64,000 nucleotides of DNA from Terriglobia bacterium (lineage in GTDB: Bacteria; Acidobacteriota; Terriglobia; Bryobacterales; Bryobacteraceae), in assembly GCA_020073305.1 (NCBI GenBank), contig JAIQFK010000002.1, positions 1-64,000 on the forward strand, read 5' to 3'. This document shows positions 11,375 through 17,576 of this stretch, one piece after another. The stretch's first letter is position 1, and every line of letters begins with the position of its first letter. The position numbers were made by a program, and so were the translations under genes. The notes under the pieces are model-generated. The model was given only the letters and a program-made list of their open reading frames with translations. It had not been told where the DNA came from and did not search any database.

Positions 11375-11803
11375 CTAGCCGGCCCGCTTGCTGCTCGCTC
11401 GCCGGGGCCTCGGCTTGTTCTTGACCATGAGATTGAGCGCCACGGCAGCGCGGATGAGCTCCTTCAAGGCCGCCTCATCGACCTTGCCGCCTTCGTGGAT
11501 GTCGATGGCGCGCCTGACATTCCCGTCGAGGCTGGAGTTGAATAGACTTGCCGGGTCCTTCAACGCAGCTCCCTTGGCAAAGGTCATCTTGACGACGTTT
11601 TTGTACGTCTCTCCCGTGCAGACGATGCCGCCGTGGGAGAAGGTGGGAGTCCCCATCCACTTCCACTCTTCGACGATCTCCGGGTCTGCCTCGTGTACGA
11701 TTGCGCGCACTTTGGCGAGCGTCTTCCCGCGCCAGTCTCCAAGTTCTTTGATCTTCTTGTCGATTAATGCAGAGGCAGATTCCACCGGGACGGGCTTTTT
11801 CAT
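11375..11803 (-). CDS. DUF1801-family protein
   Basis: A 142-residue protein of the DUF1801 (YdhG-like) family, small alpha/beta proteins of unknown biochemical role. The family core is visible: LAKVRAIVHEADPEIVEEWK, GTPTFSHGGIVCTGETYKNV, VKMTFAKGAALKDPASLFN and RRAIDIHEGGKVDEAALKEL. The start MKKPVPVESA has no rival. A second DUF1801 protein lies at 17067-17531, on the far side of the island described below; the two are distinct in sequence. No operon partner. Confidence 0.75.
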   Translation of the reverse strand: MKKPVPVESASALIDKKIKELGDWRGKTLAKVRAIVHEADPEIVEEWKWMGTPTFSHGGIVCTGETYKNVVKMTFAKGAALKDPASLFNSSLDGNVRRAIDIHEGGKVDEAALKELIRAAVALNLMVKNKPRPRRASSKRAG

Positions 11804-11903: not shown

Positions 11904-11925
11904 GGTAGTGGGTCAGTTTCCGAGT
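11904..11925 (+). repeat. 22-bp repeat, left copy, bounding the cassette island
   Basis: GGTAGTGGGTCAGTTTCCGA plus GT occurs here and, inverted and without mismatch, at 16503-16524. The two copies enclose the reverse-transcriptase remnant and the GNAT-methyltransferase-TPR cassette. They may be IS-end relics; the flanks do not match further. Confidence 0.65.
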
Positions 11926-11984: not shown

Positions 11985-12545
11985 GTGCGGGTTGCCGGTC
12001 ACAAGCCGACTTATCGTTCCTAATCCGGCCCTAGTTCCCGGATGGGTCGACCCGCTGCCAGCGGTATCGCCTGCTAGCCCGATGGCCCCCAAGCTCTAAG
12101 AGAGCCGCACATCGACGGTGCGATGTTTCCGCTGCCGCCACATAGGCGTCCTCAGTTGCAATCGGACCCCCGCAGGCGGGGTAAATCAGCATTTCGGGCG
12201 TTTCGCAGGAGCCGAAATAGTTGCTCCAGCCAAGCATATACAGAGCCAGTTCTTCCATCGTCGTTCCCATGCTGACGCCCTTCGCCCGTCGCGCGATCTC
12301 CCGGCTTTGCTACTTGAACTGGTCCAAGGCCTTCGACGCAGTGACGCGCTTAACCTCCTGTCGGACGTCTCATGCCGTAAAGAACAGCCCTGTGGCTCGA
12401 ACAGCGCCTGCCCAATGCCGCGTTCTCTGGAGTGCTTGCGGGCGGGCCGTTGGGGAACACCTCTAAGCGAACCTAGTGTATTTTCTGTTCCTCTCGCGGA
12501 CCGATACCGAACGTTATTCTCCGGCGCATAGTTCGGAATCGGCAT
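11985..12545 (-). pseudogene. Decayed group II intron reverse transcriptase/maturase (3' part)
   Basis: Reading down from 12545, YAPENNVRYRSARGTENTLG matches the region around the RT YADD box (YADD is now YAPE). After frameshifts, a stretch ending GLFFTA at about 12374 and KRVTASKALDQFK (about 12351-12313) follow, then an in-frame stop at 12310-12312. Next come REIARRAKGVSMGTTMEELA and LYMLGWSNYFGSCETPEML, the maturase X-domain signature (GWxxYFGxCxTP). A further frame carries AGDTAGSGSTHPG, like the usual LtrA C-terminus. At least two frameshifts and a stop make it non-functional. The N-terminal RT domains and an intact intron domain V were not found nearby. Confidence 0.65.
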
Positions 12546-12561: not shown

Positions 12562-12822
12562 TCAGCGGCCTCGCCGGATCAGTTTGGCCACGGACAATTT
12601 TAGACGGACCTTGCCGAACTGAATCTCTTGAAGGCGATAGTTAGCCCGGATGACCTGCTTTGCGATCGCCGCCAAATGCTCATAAGAGACCAGTTGTCCA
12701 TCGAGCAGCGTATTGTTCAAGTAAGCAATTTTGGCGGCGTTGAGCCTAGCCTGAAGCTGCTCAAAGAGGGCCTTGGTCTCATCGAGGCCAAGCGTTGTCA
12801 GGTCCGTTGCTACATCCGGCAT
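12562..12822 (-). CDS. Small hypothetical helical protein in the island
   Basis: An 86-residue protein, MPDVATDLTTLGLDETKALF at the start and a basic C-terminus (KLSVAKLIRRGR). It is predicted mostly helical, with no signal peptide, membrane helix or recognisable motif. It lies back-to-back with the GNAT gene, with 82 bases between the two starts, so the two may share a control region. I do not recognise a family. It could be a regulator or a small partner of the divergent cassette; that is speculation from position. Confidence 0.45.
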   Translation of the reverse strand: MPDVATDLTTLGLDETKALFEQLQARLNAAKIAYLNNTLLDGQLVSYEHLAAIAKQVIRANYRLQEIQFGKVRLKLSVAKLIRRGR

Positions 12823-12904
12823 CCTTTCATTTTACCGGCTTCTCGGGCAGCCTTGCTCACCAGAACATTTTGGGGTATTACTGTTTGTTGCGCTGTTTAT
12901 CGCG

Positions 12905-13354
12905 ATGTTCGAGGTGTCCTCGGCAAATACCGGCGACGTATACGCGATTCAACAAATCTATACAGCCCTTAGGCGGCCGAAGCGGACGCGTCTGAGCCTC
13001 GACGAATACCTAGTCGCCCGAGGTGACGGACAGGTTGTTGGCTGTGCCGGCGTGCAATTAATCACAGTGGGTTCCGTCTGCGAAGGGTATCTATACGGCT
13101 TGGCCGTTCGGAAGGAACATCAGCGCAAAGGAATTGGCGCGGCCCTGACTGAAGCGCGGATCGATAGGGTTCGAAAAAGCCACGGAACTCGGGCTACGGC
13201 GCTTGCCATGTTCTGGAACGTCGCCTTCTTCCGTGGTCTCGGCTTCGCCACGATTCGCCGCTCGGAACTTTCGCCTGCGATTCTCGCCCTCGATGATTTT
13301 GTCGATGCCCGCTACCGGCGTTCAGCGGTGATGGTGCGGAGCGTCGTTTTATGA
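12905..13354 (+). CDS. GNAT-family N-acetyltransferase, first gene of the cassette
   Basis: A 149-residue GNAT acyltransferase. The acetyl-CoA motif A is plain: YLYGLAVRKEHQRKGIGAAL with the Q/RxxGxG/A pyrophosphate loop (QRKGIG), preceded by the strand VVGCAGVQLI. C-terminal part FFRGLGFATIRRSELSP fits motif B. ATG 12905 (MFEVSSANTGDVYAIQQIY) matches the normal GNAT start; the frame further upstream is not supported. The stop overlaps the methyltransferase start by 4 bp (ATGA), so the two are translationally coupled. The substrate is unknown. The coupling raises the idea of DNA or nucleoside acylation as in Mom-like GNAT enzymes, but no such motif is demonstrated. Confidence 0.75.
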   Translation: MFEVSSANTGDVYAIQQIYTALRRPKRTRLSLDEYLVARGDGQVVGCAGVQLITVGSVCEGYLYGLAVRKEHQRKGIGAALTEARIDRVRKSHGTRATALAMFWNVAFFRGLGFATIRRSELSPAILALDDFVDARYRRSAVMVRSVVL

Positions 13355-14406
13355 TTGCCTCAATCCATCAGGAAATCCATCCAATTCACGTTCGCGGACG
13401 CACCTGGCAGGCGTTATCGTTGCGCCATCAGCGAAGACTAGTCGATCGCGCCTTCGAGTTCTGGCGGAGCGAAGGCTTCCCGGTCTACAGGCTCTCGGGA
13501 GACGCGATGGCAGGCGAGTTCCAAGCCTTGTCAAGCCATCCCCTGAAGCGTTTCGCGGAGCCTGGTTTTAGTGGTTCGAACGTTTGTTTGCGCGTTGCCA
13601 ATAGTTACCATCCCCAGATGTGGGCGGTGAAGGTCAGCAGGTATTTGAGTCCGATGGACGTTTTTCTAGACGACTACCTGCTTCGAAAGGCCCTGCAGCG
13701 TGCGTGGACCGTGTGGCCCGACCGCTTCGGCGCCAACCCTGCGACTTTGCGCCGCATGTTGAAAACATTTCCAGGAGCAGCTAGCGTTTCTAACTTCCGT
13801 CCCACCGCCGCCCGGAATATCATCGCAGCCTTGTCGGACGACGGGGATACGATTCTCGATTTCTCGGCAGGCTACGGCGGGCGCCTCATGGGCGCGTTGT
13901 CGCTGCAGCGGTCTTACATTGGCATCGAGCCTTGCGAGCGACAGGTCGACGGGTTGGAGCGCGCTCTCTCGTTCCTTCGGGAACGCAACCTGACGCGGGG
14001 TCAGGCCGATATCGTCCGTGGCTGTGCGGAGGATGTCCTGCCCACCATGCCGAGCCGCAGTTTCGATCTAGTATTTTCCAGTCCACCCTACTACGATTGG
14101 GAGAAGTATTCCGATGAACCGACGCAGAGCTTTATTCGCCACCACCCATACGAGAATTGGCTGAGCGGGTTTCTGCGGCCCGTCATCCACGACAGCTACC
14201 GGGTATTACGGCCTTCAGGACACCTGGCGATCAATATTTCCGGCCGACTGCGAAGGCCGTCGTTCGAGGAAGTCAGGGGAATTGCACGTCAGGCCGGATT
14301 CCGGTTCCGCTTCCCCATTGCTCTTGGCTTGGCGCGTGTTCCTTATATGCACCCGCGACTGGGACCAAGGAAGGAGGAACAGTTGCTGGTATGGAGGAAG
14401 TCTTGA
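13351..14406 (+). CDS. DNA-methyltransferase-like protein (SPPY-type), second gene of the cassette
   Basis: A 351-residue SAM-dependent methyltransferase. Motif X-like FRPTAARN is at 149-156, motif I DFSAGYGG at 170-177, the acidic residue of motif II in YIGIEP (189-194), and the catalytic motif IV SSPPYY at 243-248, the hallmark of amino-methylating (N6-A or N4-C) DNA methyltransferases. It is followed by EKYSDEPTQSF and YRVLRPSGHLAINISG, also typical. The 145-residue N-terminus is unassigned and could hold the target-recognition function. No restriction endonuclease gene is adjacent. Coupled to the GNAT by 4-bp overlap and followed two bases after its stop by a TPR/membrane gene. A ribosomal or small-molecule methyltransferase is less likely given SPPY. 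Confidence 0.75.
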   Translation: MIASIHQEIHPIHVRGRTWQALSLRHQRRLVDRAFEFWRSEGFPVYRLSGDAMAGEFQALSSHPLKRFAEPGFSGSNVCLRVANSYHPQMWAVKVSRYLSPMDVFLDDYLLRKALQRAWTVWPDRFGANPATLRRMLKTFPGAASVSNFRPTAARNIIAALSDDGDTILDFSAGYGGRLMGALSLQRSYIGIEPCERQVDGLERALSFLRERNLTRGQADIVRGCAEDVLPTMPSRSFDLVFSSPPYYDWEKYSDEPTQSFIRHHPYENWLSGFLRPVIHDSYRVLRPSGHLAINISGRLRRPSFEEVRGIARQAGFRFRFPIALGLARVPYMHPRLGPRKEEQLLVWRKS

Positions 14407-14408
14407 GC

Positions 14409-15353
14409 ATGTCGCGCGGACTTTGCCTGCCATTTCTTCTCCTGGCCGCGGCATCTGCGGTATTCTGCCAGACGAACGCCAATCTTGACCTGGCCGATAC
14501 TTATGAGCAGCTGAAGAGATGGCCTGAGGCAGAGAAGTATTTCCAGGAGGCCGCGAAGGATTCGGACCTCGCAGTCAGGCGGCAGGCGCTGGCCGGTATT
14601 GTCAGGGTCCACACTGCCGCGAATGGCCAACATCAGGAGTTGGCCGGCGCCCGATACTACAATAATGCCGGCGTCCTCGACAAGGCCGAAGAGCAGTACG
14701 TTACAGCGCTGAAGTCCGATTCACAGGACGTGAGAAATTTGGCGAATTCCGCCTTGCAGGACGTGCAGAGCGAACTGTGGCTCAAGCGAAGATTCGACCG
14801 GGTACTCCAGTGGGTTGCCTACCTGGCGTTCGTGATCGGCGTGTTTTCCGTGATCGTCCTAATTTGGACGGCGATTCGAGTGAAGAACAGCGTGGAACTG
14901 CGCGCATTCATTGAGGTGGGCGAGCATGTCAGCGGTAAGGCAGCGTACTGGCTTGCGTACGTGCGCGCGCGAATCGCATCGGTCTCCGCCCCCCTCCCCG
15001 CCGCTATTTCACCGCTCTCCGCGGAGTTGTTGTTTCACGCTGCGCTGCCGGAATTTCGCGATGAACTTCCAGAACCGCAAAACGAACTGGAGGTGAGCGG
15101 CGTGAAGATCCCGTTCGCATCCCTGGTCAACGTTCTCGTCAAACCGAAGGTCCGGATATCCGGCGGGTGGATCGCTCCGGCTGCGGCCGCCGACGGAACC
15201 GCATTCGGAGCCATTTCACGTCCGTCGTCTCTTGGCAAAGAGCGCGGTCCCACCGTTTTCATGCGGCCGCTTCGCGCGGCCACTTTGGACCAGGATCTCG
15301 AGGCTTTCGCCTATGATGTTTATATAAAGGCGGTGGAAGCCCATGCCTCTTAG
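14409..15353 (+). CDS. Signal-peptide/TPR/single-pass membrane protein, third gene of the cassette
   Basis: A 314-residue protein. ATG 14409 lies two bases after the methyltransferase stop and gives a signal-peptide-like start (MSRGLCLPFLLLAAASAVFC). TPR-like helices follow (LADTYEQLKRWPEAEKYFQE and YNNAGVLDKAEEQYVTAL), then a membrane helix VLQWVAYLAFVIGVFSVIVL near 135-160, and a cytoplasmic-looking C-terminal domain of about 150 residues with no recognised fold. The longer frame upstream of 14409 is antigenic noise inside the methyltransferase gene. Its role may be to anchor or assemble a complex at the membrane. Confidence 0.65.
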   Translation: MSRGLCLPFLLLAAASAVFCQTNANLDLADTYEQLKRWPEAEKYFQEAAKDSDLAVRRQALAGIVRVHTAANGQHQELAGARYYNNAGVLDKAEEQYVTALKSDSQDVRNLANSALQDVQSELWLKRRFDRVLQWVAYLAFVIGVFSVIVLIWTAIRVKNSVELRAFIEVGEHVSGKAAYWLAYVRARIASVSAPLPAAISPLSAELLFHAALPEFRDELPEPQNELEVSGVKIPFASLVNVLVKPKVRISGGWIAPAAAADGTAFGAISRPSSLGKERGPTVFMRPLRAATLDQDLEAFAYDVYIKAVEAHAS

Positions 15354-16344
15354 TCCCTTGCAAACCCGTAACGCTGATGCGTTACGGAACTTCGTTGCCG
15401 GCCGGGAACAACTGCGGTCGTACCTGACCAGTGGGAACGGAGATTCCTTGAAGATGGCGAGAGAGAGTTTCAATGAGGCGACCAAATTCGATCCACGATT
15501 CCAATTGGCCGTCTTTTACCGCTCGGTGGTCGCATCCGAACTCCGCGATGCCGATGCTGCCATCCAGGGTTTCGAAGAACTCTTGAAAGCCAGCACTGAT
15601 TTTCGCGCAGAGGTCTTGCTGCAATTAGCGTACGCGCACATCAAACGTTATCGGGACGACGACTACTTCAAAGCCGAGCAGTTCCTCACCGATGGCCGGC
15701 GCGCGGCGAAGGATCACGGCCAAAAAGAGCTCGTCGTCATGGCGGACGCACTCAAAGTCTTTCTCTACTCCGTAATGGGAGGACGTTTGTCAAACCGGAG
15801 CAGCCGGCTTGGCTACCTCGAGCAGGCCGTGAGGCTGGGCGAAGGTCTGCTGATCGATCAAACGGAGTTTGAGAATGGCATACCAACCGAAGCGCGATTT
15901 GAAGTCCTGAATGGTCTCGGTATTGCCTACACACGGAAGGGTGAGAAGATGCCGGCATCCAGGCAAGAGTTCTGGACCACGGCCGAGGCGCGGTTGAAGG
16001 AGGCGTTAGACCTGCGGCCGACCTCCGTGCGCGCCATGCAGAATATGGGTCTGCTCCAGGGAATGCAAGGTTTCGAGGCACTTCATGACGGCAAGAGCGA
16101 CCAAGCGGGGGTGTTCTTTCAGCAGGCCAGAGACCGGTACCGGGAATCCCTGGATCTGAATCCGAACGACCAGTACCCACATTACCGCATGTCCCAGCTT
16201 AGTGCGGTAGCGGGCGACTGGGAGGAGGCGAGACGCTACTTCGCCAGTGGACAGAAACAGAACGGCGCGGTGAAACCGGAAGAATGGTCCAAGCTCCAGG
16301 CCGCGATCGATCGTCACGATGCCTCCGGAATCGACTGGTTATAA
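15343..16344 (+). CDS. Cytoplasmic TPR-repeat protein, fourth gene of the cassette
   Basis: A 333-residue protein built of TPR units: ARESFNEATKFDPRFQLAVF, a second unit with AAIQGFEELLK, AEARLKEALDLRPTSVRAMQ, and RYRESLDLNPNDQYPHYRMS before the end. It has no signal peptide. The start overlaps the preceding gene by 11 bp, so all four cassette genes are tightly packed and probably co-translated. TPR proteins serve as scaffolds; the neighbouring TPR/membrane protein is the obvious partner. The final segment (WEEARRYFASGQKQ) is another repeat. No enzymatic motif is seen. Confidence 0.7.
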   Translation: MPLSPLQTRNADALRNFVAGREQLRSYLTSGNGDSLKMARESFNEATKFDPRFQLAVFYRSVVASELRDADAAIQGFEELLKASTDFRAEVLLQLAYAHIKRYRDDDYFKAEQFLTDGRRAAKDHGQKELVVMADALKVFLYSVMGGRLSNRSSRLGYLEQAVRLGEGLLIDQTEFENGIPTEARFEVLNGLGIAYTRKGEKMPASRQEFWTTAEARLKEALDLRPTSVRAMQNMGLLQGMQGFEALHDGKSDQAGVFFQQARDRYRESLDLNPNDQYPHYRMSQLSAVAGDWEEARRYFASGQKQNGAVKPEEWSKLQAAIDRHDASGIDWL

Positions 16345-16502: not shown

Positions 16503-16524
16503 ACTCGGAAACTGACCCACTACC
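16503..16524 (-). repeat. 22-bp repeat, right (inverted) copy
   Basis: ACTCGGAAACTGACCCACTA plus CC is the exact reverse complement of 11904-11925. It lies about 160 bases past the last cassette gene. The surrounding 16345-16632 stretch has no gene. Confidence 0.65.
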
Positions 16525-17066: not shown

Positions 17067-17531
17067 CTACGGGACCCAGCCGGGCAGGGCGGCCGCCTGC
17101 CGGATCCACGTCGCCAACTGCGCCTCGTCGAGCTGATCGTGCTCGTGGATGTCGAGGTAGCGCACTTCCTTGTGCTTGGACTCGCTCGGGGGGACAGGAC
17201 GCAGCGATGTGCCGCGGAGGAAAGCCACCTTGACGTAGTTCGTGAAGGTATGGAAGTTGAGGAACCACCCCTGGCCCTCGACTCCGTAGAAGGGCGAGTT
17301 CCATTTGACCGCCTTGCGCACGCCGGGGACGGTGCGCGCGATGAGCGCGTCGAGGCGGCGCCCGACGTCGCTTTTCCAGCTCGGCATGGCCGTGATGTAG
17401 GCCTGCACGGGGACGTCGCCGTCGGCCTTCGCGATCTGAGGGTTGCCGCCTGCGAGGAGGGTCGGCTTAGCCACTGCGGGGCCCTTGGTTGCGGCGGACT
17501 TCGCCGACTTCTTGGACGTCTTGCCGGCCAT
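17067..17531 (-). CDS. DUF1801-family protein with basic N-terminal extension
   Basis: A 154-residue protein. Its first 35 residues are Lys/Ala/Pro-rich (MAGKTSKKSAKSAATKGPAV), like the tails of DNA-associated proteins; the DUF1801 domain follows with VQAYITAMPSWKSDVGRRLD, VRKAVKWNSPFYG, FTNYVKVAFLRG and VRYLDIHEHDQLDEAQLATW. ATG 17531 is preferred over a GTG-type start nine codons upstream. It probably forms a transcript with the following VOC gene. The function of DUF1801 is unknown. Confidence 0.75.
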   Translation of the reverse strand: MAGKTSKKSAKSAATKGPAVAKPTLLAGGNPQIAKADGDVPVQAYITAMPSWKSDVGRRLDALIARTVPGVRKAVKWNSPFYGVEGQGWFLNFHTFTNYVKVAFLRGTSLRPVPPSESKHKEVRYLDIHEHDQLDEAQLATWIRQAAALPGWVP

Positions 17532-17576
17532 TGTGTTCACTCCAACTAATCGACTCACTTACGTTACGCCAAATCC

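Follow-up and report, generated by a model that had tools for sequence, protein, structure and literature searches.

A rare and patchily spread bacterial cassette of a phage-type methyltransferase and two TPR proteins

The described systems which come closest to the cassette presented here are phage thymine hypermodification, the type II and orphan methyltransferases, Mom momylation and MADS. Hypermodification of thymine in phages is reportedly carried out with TET/JBP, ADDT and PLP enzymes and acetyltransferases. With the type II and orphan methyltransferases of the family PF01555 the methyltransferase of the cassette, MT1, has in common motif I, an SPPY motif and the match to PF01555 itself. 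In Mom momylation a GNAT enzyme takes part in DNA modification, according to PMC7824862. In the titles and abstract openings of the literature searched neither the cassette nor a related phage gene set, called HYD-PALP-MT1 in the following, is described, and no PADLOC system matched the cassette.

The cassette is contained in the window, by which the whole analysed stretch of 64 kb from a Terriglobia bacterium is meant. Its features are the following.

11904..11925, (+) strand: left 22-bp inverted repeat, exact
12187..12321, (-) strand: group II intron reverse transcriptase remnant, maturase domain (GIIM PF08388 3.6e-7, one in-frame stop)
12562..12822, (-) strand: P0005, protein of 86 aa whose gene diverges from that of the GNAT, with homologues in L010 (49% identity) and L143
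12905..13354, (+) strand: GNAT acyltransferase, 149 aa (PF00583 4e-12; orthologue only in L010, 39%)
13351..14406, (+) strand: MT1, 351 aa, phage-type SAM-dependent amino-methyltransferase
14409..15353, (+) strand: TPR-TM (P0003), with an N-terminal hydrophobic segment, TPR-like helices and one predicted TM helix (138-156)
15343..16344, (+) strand: TPR (P0004), soluble-type TPR protein
16503..16524, (-) strand: right 22-bp inverted repeat, exact complement of the left copy

The five genes P0005, GNAT, MT1, TPR-TM and TPR occupy positions 12562-16344 and lie inside the inverted repeats, with the maturase fragment placed between the left repeat and P0005. GNAT and MT1 overlap by 4 bp, MT1 and TPR-TM are separated by a gap of 2 bases, and TPR-TM and TPR overlap by 11 bp; the likeliest start of the GNAT gene is the ATG at 12905, from which the reading frame runs to 13354. 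Positions and junctions were in agreement with those given in an initial annotation of this DNA, which had also seen exact inverted 22-bp repeats around the unit, a dead intron reverse transcriptase and a GNAT enzyme as the first of four genes on one strand, all of which could be confirmed by the data listed above. The two methylase motifs it had named for the second gene are both present in MT1, as SPPY and as a motif I-like DFSAGYGGR. Its designation of the last two genes as TPR proteins held above cut-off for the last gene, TPR-TM remaining below with a best value of 6e-5, and the membrane anchor it had assigned to one of them corresponds to the TM helix predicted in TPR-TM. It had further stated that an endonuclease partner is missing, and indeed nuclease families are absent among the matches listed for the five cassette proteins (for MT1 the best 25 of 36 PADLOC rows). 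P0005 had no family match in Pfam, phage, PADLOC and further profile libraries.

Compared with type II restriction-modification systems the cassette has no restriction partner and its methyltransferase is linked to two TPR genes; compared with the type II enzymes MT1 has a helical N-terminal domain which is common to the phage proteins. The likeness to phage thymine hypermodification is that PLP-type enzymes, 2OG oxygenases and, weakly, GNAT enzymes recur beside MT1, whereas an SPPY methylase is included here and no ADDT or TET/JBP gene is found in the cassette. Mom resembles the cassette in having a GNAT enzyme with a putative DNA-modification partner, but no Mom match was obtained, the window GNAT matching only generic GNAT and phage acetyltransferase models from libraries in which a Mom model may be absent, and GNAT is in line with MT1 in only two of the eight cassettes described below. 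The Mad2 methylase model of MADS matched MT1 with 1e-11, on par with other methylase models; the other four cassette proteins had no PADLOC match of any kind, so that further mad genes are absent.

Co-occurrence of the genes in other genomes had been set in advance as a test of whether they belong together. A scan of species genomes with the MT1 alignment yielded at least 50 loci, and MT1 was found together with TPR genes at eight cassette loci, which are the window, L010, L011, L012, L013, L014, L015 and, from a search of class genomes, L143. Such recurrence in further genomes puts the grouping beyond chance. In L010, an Acidobacteriales bin, P0005, GNAT, MT1, TPR-TM and TPR are arranged in an order identical to the window, again with a 4 bp overlap between GNAT and MT1, and the MT1 proteins share 54% identity. 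L143 has P0005, MT1, TPR-TM and TPR on a single strand. MT1 with TPR genes is also present in L011 (Verrucomicrobia), L012 (Acidobacteria) and L013-L015 (Bacteroidota), five loci at which the TPR genes are opposite in strand to MT1, convergent with it in L011-L013 and L015 and divergent in L014. MT1, TPR-TM and TPR are adjacent at seven of the eight loci (window, L010, L012-L015, L143); L011 has a TPR gene and, replacing TPR-TM, a 750-aa protein with a TPR model match of 1e-19 and a hydrophobic segment (KD 2.63) at residue 37. These three genes are the core of the cassette. GNAT, tried as a further core part, was rejected on account of its single orthologue in L010 and is regarded as accessory because it is found at two of the eight loci, the window and L010. 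From the four-gene unit proposed initially the methyltransferase and the two TPR genes were therefore retained as conserved over the eight loci, and GNAT was removed.

In single-sequence searches with the window proteins TPR-TM reached L010 and, weakly, L012, and TPR reached L010-L013 and L015; the TPR protein of L014 was linked via L143 (2e-48) and L015 (3e-32). The TPR-TM proteins of L013-L015 were picked first by eye and position and later backed by profile-profile comparison of the Acidobacteria and Bacteroidota groups (probability 94.8, E 5e-8). The TPR model found L143, which was not among its seeds, with 5e-87, the next match being 1e-12 (six genomes, five of them those of the seeds).

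The TPR-methylase cassette is rare and patchy. MT1 of the window used alone was found in at least 1 of 396 phylum genomes, this being its own. The MT1 model found at least 4 of 399 class genomes (the window, apparently L012, L143, and a phage-type locus that lacks TPR genes), at least 4 of 300 genomes of one family (L143 and three others) and at least 1 of 236 genomes of the L011 class (L011 itself). In two Bacteroidota orders the TPR model found at least 1 of 300 and at least 1 of 296 genomes, each time the query genome. All these counts come from scoring a few candidates in each genome. Among 72,556 plasmid records one had a weak MT1 match and none a match to P0004.

The cassette is apparently mobile, judging from its repeats and patchy spread and from the integrase gene that lies close to the L012 cassette. 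The 22-bp repeats are the sole exact inverted 18-mer pair (18 bases or more) in the window, and no third copy with up to 3 mismatches was found in its own 6.98-Mb assembly. At the window cassette neither a transposase nor a clear target duplication was found, candidate target site duplications beside the repeats giving no confident reading. With the flanking glyoxalase as query for an empty site, none of the 40 other genomes in a set of 41 gave a match at E 1e-25, and Rfam gave no family at threshold anywhere in the window. Third-position GC amounts to 0.62-0.69 in the cassette and to 0.73-0.90 in nine of the ten neighbours tried, with 0.65 in the glyoxalase neighbour, and this offset is a weak sign of foreign origin. 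In L010 a candidate island end, a tRNA-like 3' fragment, is located at 744-775; a second match was obtained only with 3 mismatches, and ARAGORN reported no tRNA there.

Judged by its sequence MT1 is a full-length member of a phage methylase family. Its profile matches are DNA-methylase families, with PF01555 at 1e-12 (49 bits, cut-off 26.7) and phrog_12517 at 7.7e-21. Relatives were found in 23 of 50,697 phage records with a best identity of 29%, and viral relatives at tblastn 1e-3 numbered at least 584. The structure model has a pLDDT of 93.6, and its near-full-length fold matches are viral proteins including pithovirus N4-cytosine-type methylases (TM 0.68-0.75); Gp294 of Bacillus phage G matched the fold in part. 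A maximum-likelihood tree was computed for 50 MT1s, to which a set of 113 had been thinned with all eight cassette rows retained; in it the eight cassette MT1s form one clade (100/97) separate from 24 phage MT1s. Distances of MT1 correlated with those of TPR-TM (r 0.75, 6 of 5000 permutations). The values for MT1 and soluble TPR (r 0.34, 289 of 5000) and for TPR and TPR-TM (r 0.32, 362 of 5000) count against the reading preferred below.

A TM helix is predicted in seven of seven TPR-TM proteins, with a basic C-side as judged by eye, and their N-terminal hydrophobic stretch is above threshold in four of the seven and was assigned by eye in the rest. The soluble TPR proteins had no hydrophobic segment above threshold in eight of eight cases, the window and seven homologues. 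In the TPR-TM model, with a pLDDT of only 66, the predicted C-terminal domain resembles TolB-N, FlgT and XCC0632 (Z 8.5-9.1, rmsd 3.1-3.4, about 103 residues); Foldseek gave an E of about 0.03 for the TolB-N-like domain, and the TPR rows tie in Z.

Some phage contigs carry HYD, PALP or MT2 after MT1, the genes overlapping or nearly touching. HYD is an Asp/Arg-hydroxylase-like 2OG oxygenase (PF05118) in which the residues H-D...H, presumably the iron ligands, are invariant in five of five sequences; PALP is a PLP-type enzyme (PF00291) and MT2 a second methylase (PF01555). Examples are the MAG contig L040 and the loci L108, L130 and L128, the last of which has all of them and an additional 2OG oxygenase. 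In L003, L108, L128, L130 and others MT1 comes after a clamp loader gene, and L003 and L130 have a DNA polymerase further along. When viral loci were selected by MT1, 11 of 83 had HYD, PALP, MT2, ThiS or a phage GNAT within 5 kb, with strong matches in 6 of the 11, many of the 83 contigs being short. When they were selected by HYD (the best 80 of 204 loci), an MT1-family gene was present within the available sequence in 59, in 46 of them over at least 70% of the model, PALP in 60, MT2 in 18, a weakly GNAT-like gene in 6 and any partner in 79, all on the HYD strand. Those of the best 80 of 204 which have at least 4 kb on both sides contained MT1 in 38 of 38 and PALP in 31 of 38 cases.

As the HYD seeds had been taken from MT1 loci, a control was run with 80 loci chosen by an SbcD-like (gp47-type) gene, an anchor itself taken from an HYD phage. 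HYD and MT1 were both present in 21 of these, HYD without MT1 in 12, MT1 without HYD in none, and neither in 47. With a cut of 7.5 kb downstream, chosen once the distance had been seen, 22 loci pass, and HYD, PALP and MT1 are all present in 17 and all absent in 5 (Fisher 3.8e-5, a value which overstates independence because 15 of the 22 have DNA in common with the HYD set). The other seven comprise three loci with all three genes and four with none, and the full-flank result of 38 in 38 and these seven independent loci agree in direction. A second route ties HYD to DNA hypermodification, since in mycobacteriophage LilMcDreamy a HYD homologue (5e-44) adjoins an amino acid:DNA transferase gene (PF18724 2.7e-12); the 7.7 kb examined there contained neither MT1 nor PALP. 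HYD, PALP and MT1, sometimes with MT2 or GNAT, look like an undescribed DNA hypermodification pathway. By full-length alignments and the tree MT1 of the cassette belongs to the MT1 family of this set, and the window differs from it in having neither HYD nor PALP. GNAT-like genes overlapping MT1 in the phage-type loci L016 and L017 are of a different family and weakly assigned, and the idea that HYD begins with a GNAT domain was discarded, since this part showed no relation to the window GNAT and a weak one to the phage GNAT (probability 14).

Partner enzymes are also seen in bacterial cassettes. PALP overlaps MT1 in L011, MT2 overlaps TPR-TM in L013, and L143 has HYD and MT2, while no such enzyme is in line with MT1 in L012, L014 and L015, three of the eight. 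HYD or PALP with MT1 is restricted to two of the eight cassettes (PALP in L011, HYD in L143). This restriction, the three cassettes lacking such an enzyme in line, the opposite strand of the TPR genes at five loci, the low share of MT1-selected viral loci with a partner (11 of 83) and the confinement of clear defence neighbours to L143 count against the preferred reading. This reading, held tentatively and with somewhat less than even confidence, is that of a mobile, membrane-tethered cassette for nucleic-acid modification, probably of DNA, which has kinship with phages and finds its likeliest use in phage conflict. MT1 and a tailoring enzyme, GNAT in the window, would modify bases, most likely in DNA. 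TPR-TM would cross the inner membrane with its TPRs outside and the TolB-N-like domain inside, and the soluble TPR protein would connect this domain to the enzymes in a putative physical complex which holds MT1 at the inner membrane. DNA, either self or entering, would be marked at the membrane with a chemistry common to phage hypermodification. If this were true, a nuclease-free methylase-based system with a core kept in three phyla would act at the membrane. The phage set is all-or-none in the judgeable control loci, and both the set and the cassette predict modified bases which should be detectable by mass spectrometry. A more far-reaching version, which is doubtful, would be a new nuclease-free anti-phage system in which bacteria share phage hypermodification, anchored to the membrane via a TPR relay and tailoring DNA at entry with swapped partners. 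GNAT, PLP-type enzyme, 2OG oxygenase and second methylase may be the exchangeable parts, and the chemistry may thus vary between cassettes.

A DNA-hypermodification or anti-phage module had already been proposed in the initial annotation, and a clustering of the methyltransferase with rRNA or small-molecule enzymes had been set in advance as an outcome that would refute it. The result is mixed. By sequence MT1 groups with DNA methylases including those of phages, and some phages place it beside hypermodification-type enzymes, which argues for the proposal; against it, the solved folds nearest to the MT1 catalytic domain are the tRNA methylases Trm11, TrmN and Trm14 (Z 18.5, with many ties). 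These folds and an S1 RNA-binding domain at the C-terminus of the L012 TPR protein would fit a cassette which modifies RNA, be it tRNA or other, for instance guarding translation in infection, with the TPR proteins as a membrane scaffold. We consider this unlikely, since the sequence families of MT1 are those of DNA methylases with no THUMP domain match in Pfam, the phage relatives belong to a block of DNA replication genes, where they come after the clamp loader gene, and HYD adjoins the amino acid:DNA transferase. The fold ranks are moreover tied across many enzyme types, and fold searches were rejected as a discriminator because they do not tell DNA enzymes from RNA enzymes.

It is distinctly unlikely that MT1 is an orphan methylase protecting or regulating a mobile element and that the TPR genes are unrelated household passengers. 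Inverted repeats, intron remnant, the integrase near L012 and the rare and patchy occurrence are consistent with such an element, but the linkage of MT1 with TPR genes persists over eight loci, among them named members of three phyla, and across differing strand arrangements. A guard system, in which MT1 marks host DNA and a membrane TPR effector damages the membrane if mark or enzyme is lost, could make use of the TM helix predicted in all seven TPR-TM proteins and would accord with the lack of a nuclease among the matches listed; it is nevertheless very unlikely, as no known effector fold was recognized and the TPR-TM domain resembles TolB-N and FlgT.

Clear defence neighbours were seen at one locus only, L143, which adjoins GajB-like (1e-47) and BilC-like (4e-7) genes. 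In L014 a GNAT gene (PF00583 4.5e-6) is located on the other strand beside the TPR gene, and in L013 a protease-nuclease fusion (PF13365, PF01223) lies about 4 kb off.

Some phages with T4-type replication genes carry a gene set composed of an Asp/Arg-hydroxylase-like 2OG oxygenase (HYD), a PLP-type enzyme (PALP) and the phage-type methyltransferase MT1, with or without the second methylase MT2 and a GNAT-like gene (phage contig L128:831-5076, MAG contig L040:3-3179, loci L161 and L204, and others). The HYD-PALP-MT1 set was all-or-none as a unit in the phage loci that could be judged, and the whole set appears to form a so far undescribed pathway of DNA hypermodification. In seven of the eight MT2 methylases inspected motif IV reads S-x-P-D in place of (D/N/S)PP(Y/F), the exception being the Bacteroidota locus L013 with SPPY. 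This observation included:
L143:5677-6420, MT2 of a bacterial cassette locus
L108:6561-7211, MT2 of a phage contig
L128:4408-5076, MT2

In Mycobacterium phage LilMcDreamy (L245:855-3759) a HYD homologue adjoins both an amino acid:DNA transferase (PF18724) and a gene named queuine tRNA-ribosyltransferase, the latter with a weak Tet_JBP match (0.002).

Near the L143 cassette lie JAB-like, E2-like and E1-like genes (L143:397-1292 and L240:12873-14342), a combination resembling ubiquitin-like defence operons; the JAB-like gene matched PF14464 below cut-off and the other two were assigned by eye. The TPR protein of the acidobacterial L012 cassette (L012:1615-2970) ends C-terminally in an S1 RNA-binding domain (PF00575, 2.4e-14), and a phage-type integrase gene is close by. 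Immediately ahead of the L010 cassette, a fragment resembling a tRNA 3' end (L010:744-775) may be an attachment site.

In the window, two similar small same-strand genes, DUF1801-like when read by eye, lie either side of the repeat-bounded unit (11375-11803 and 17067-17558), and positions 1303-1507 hold a direct repeat with a 132-base period.
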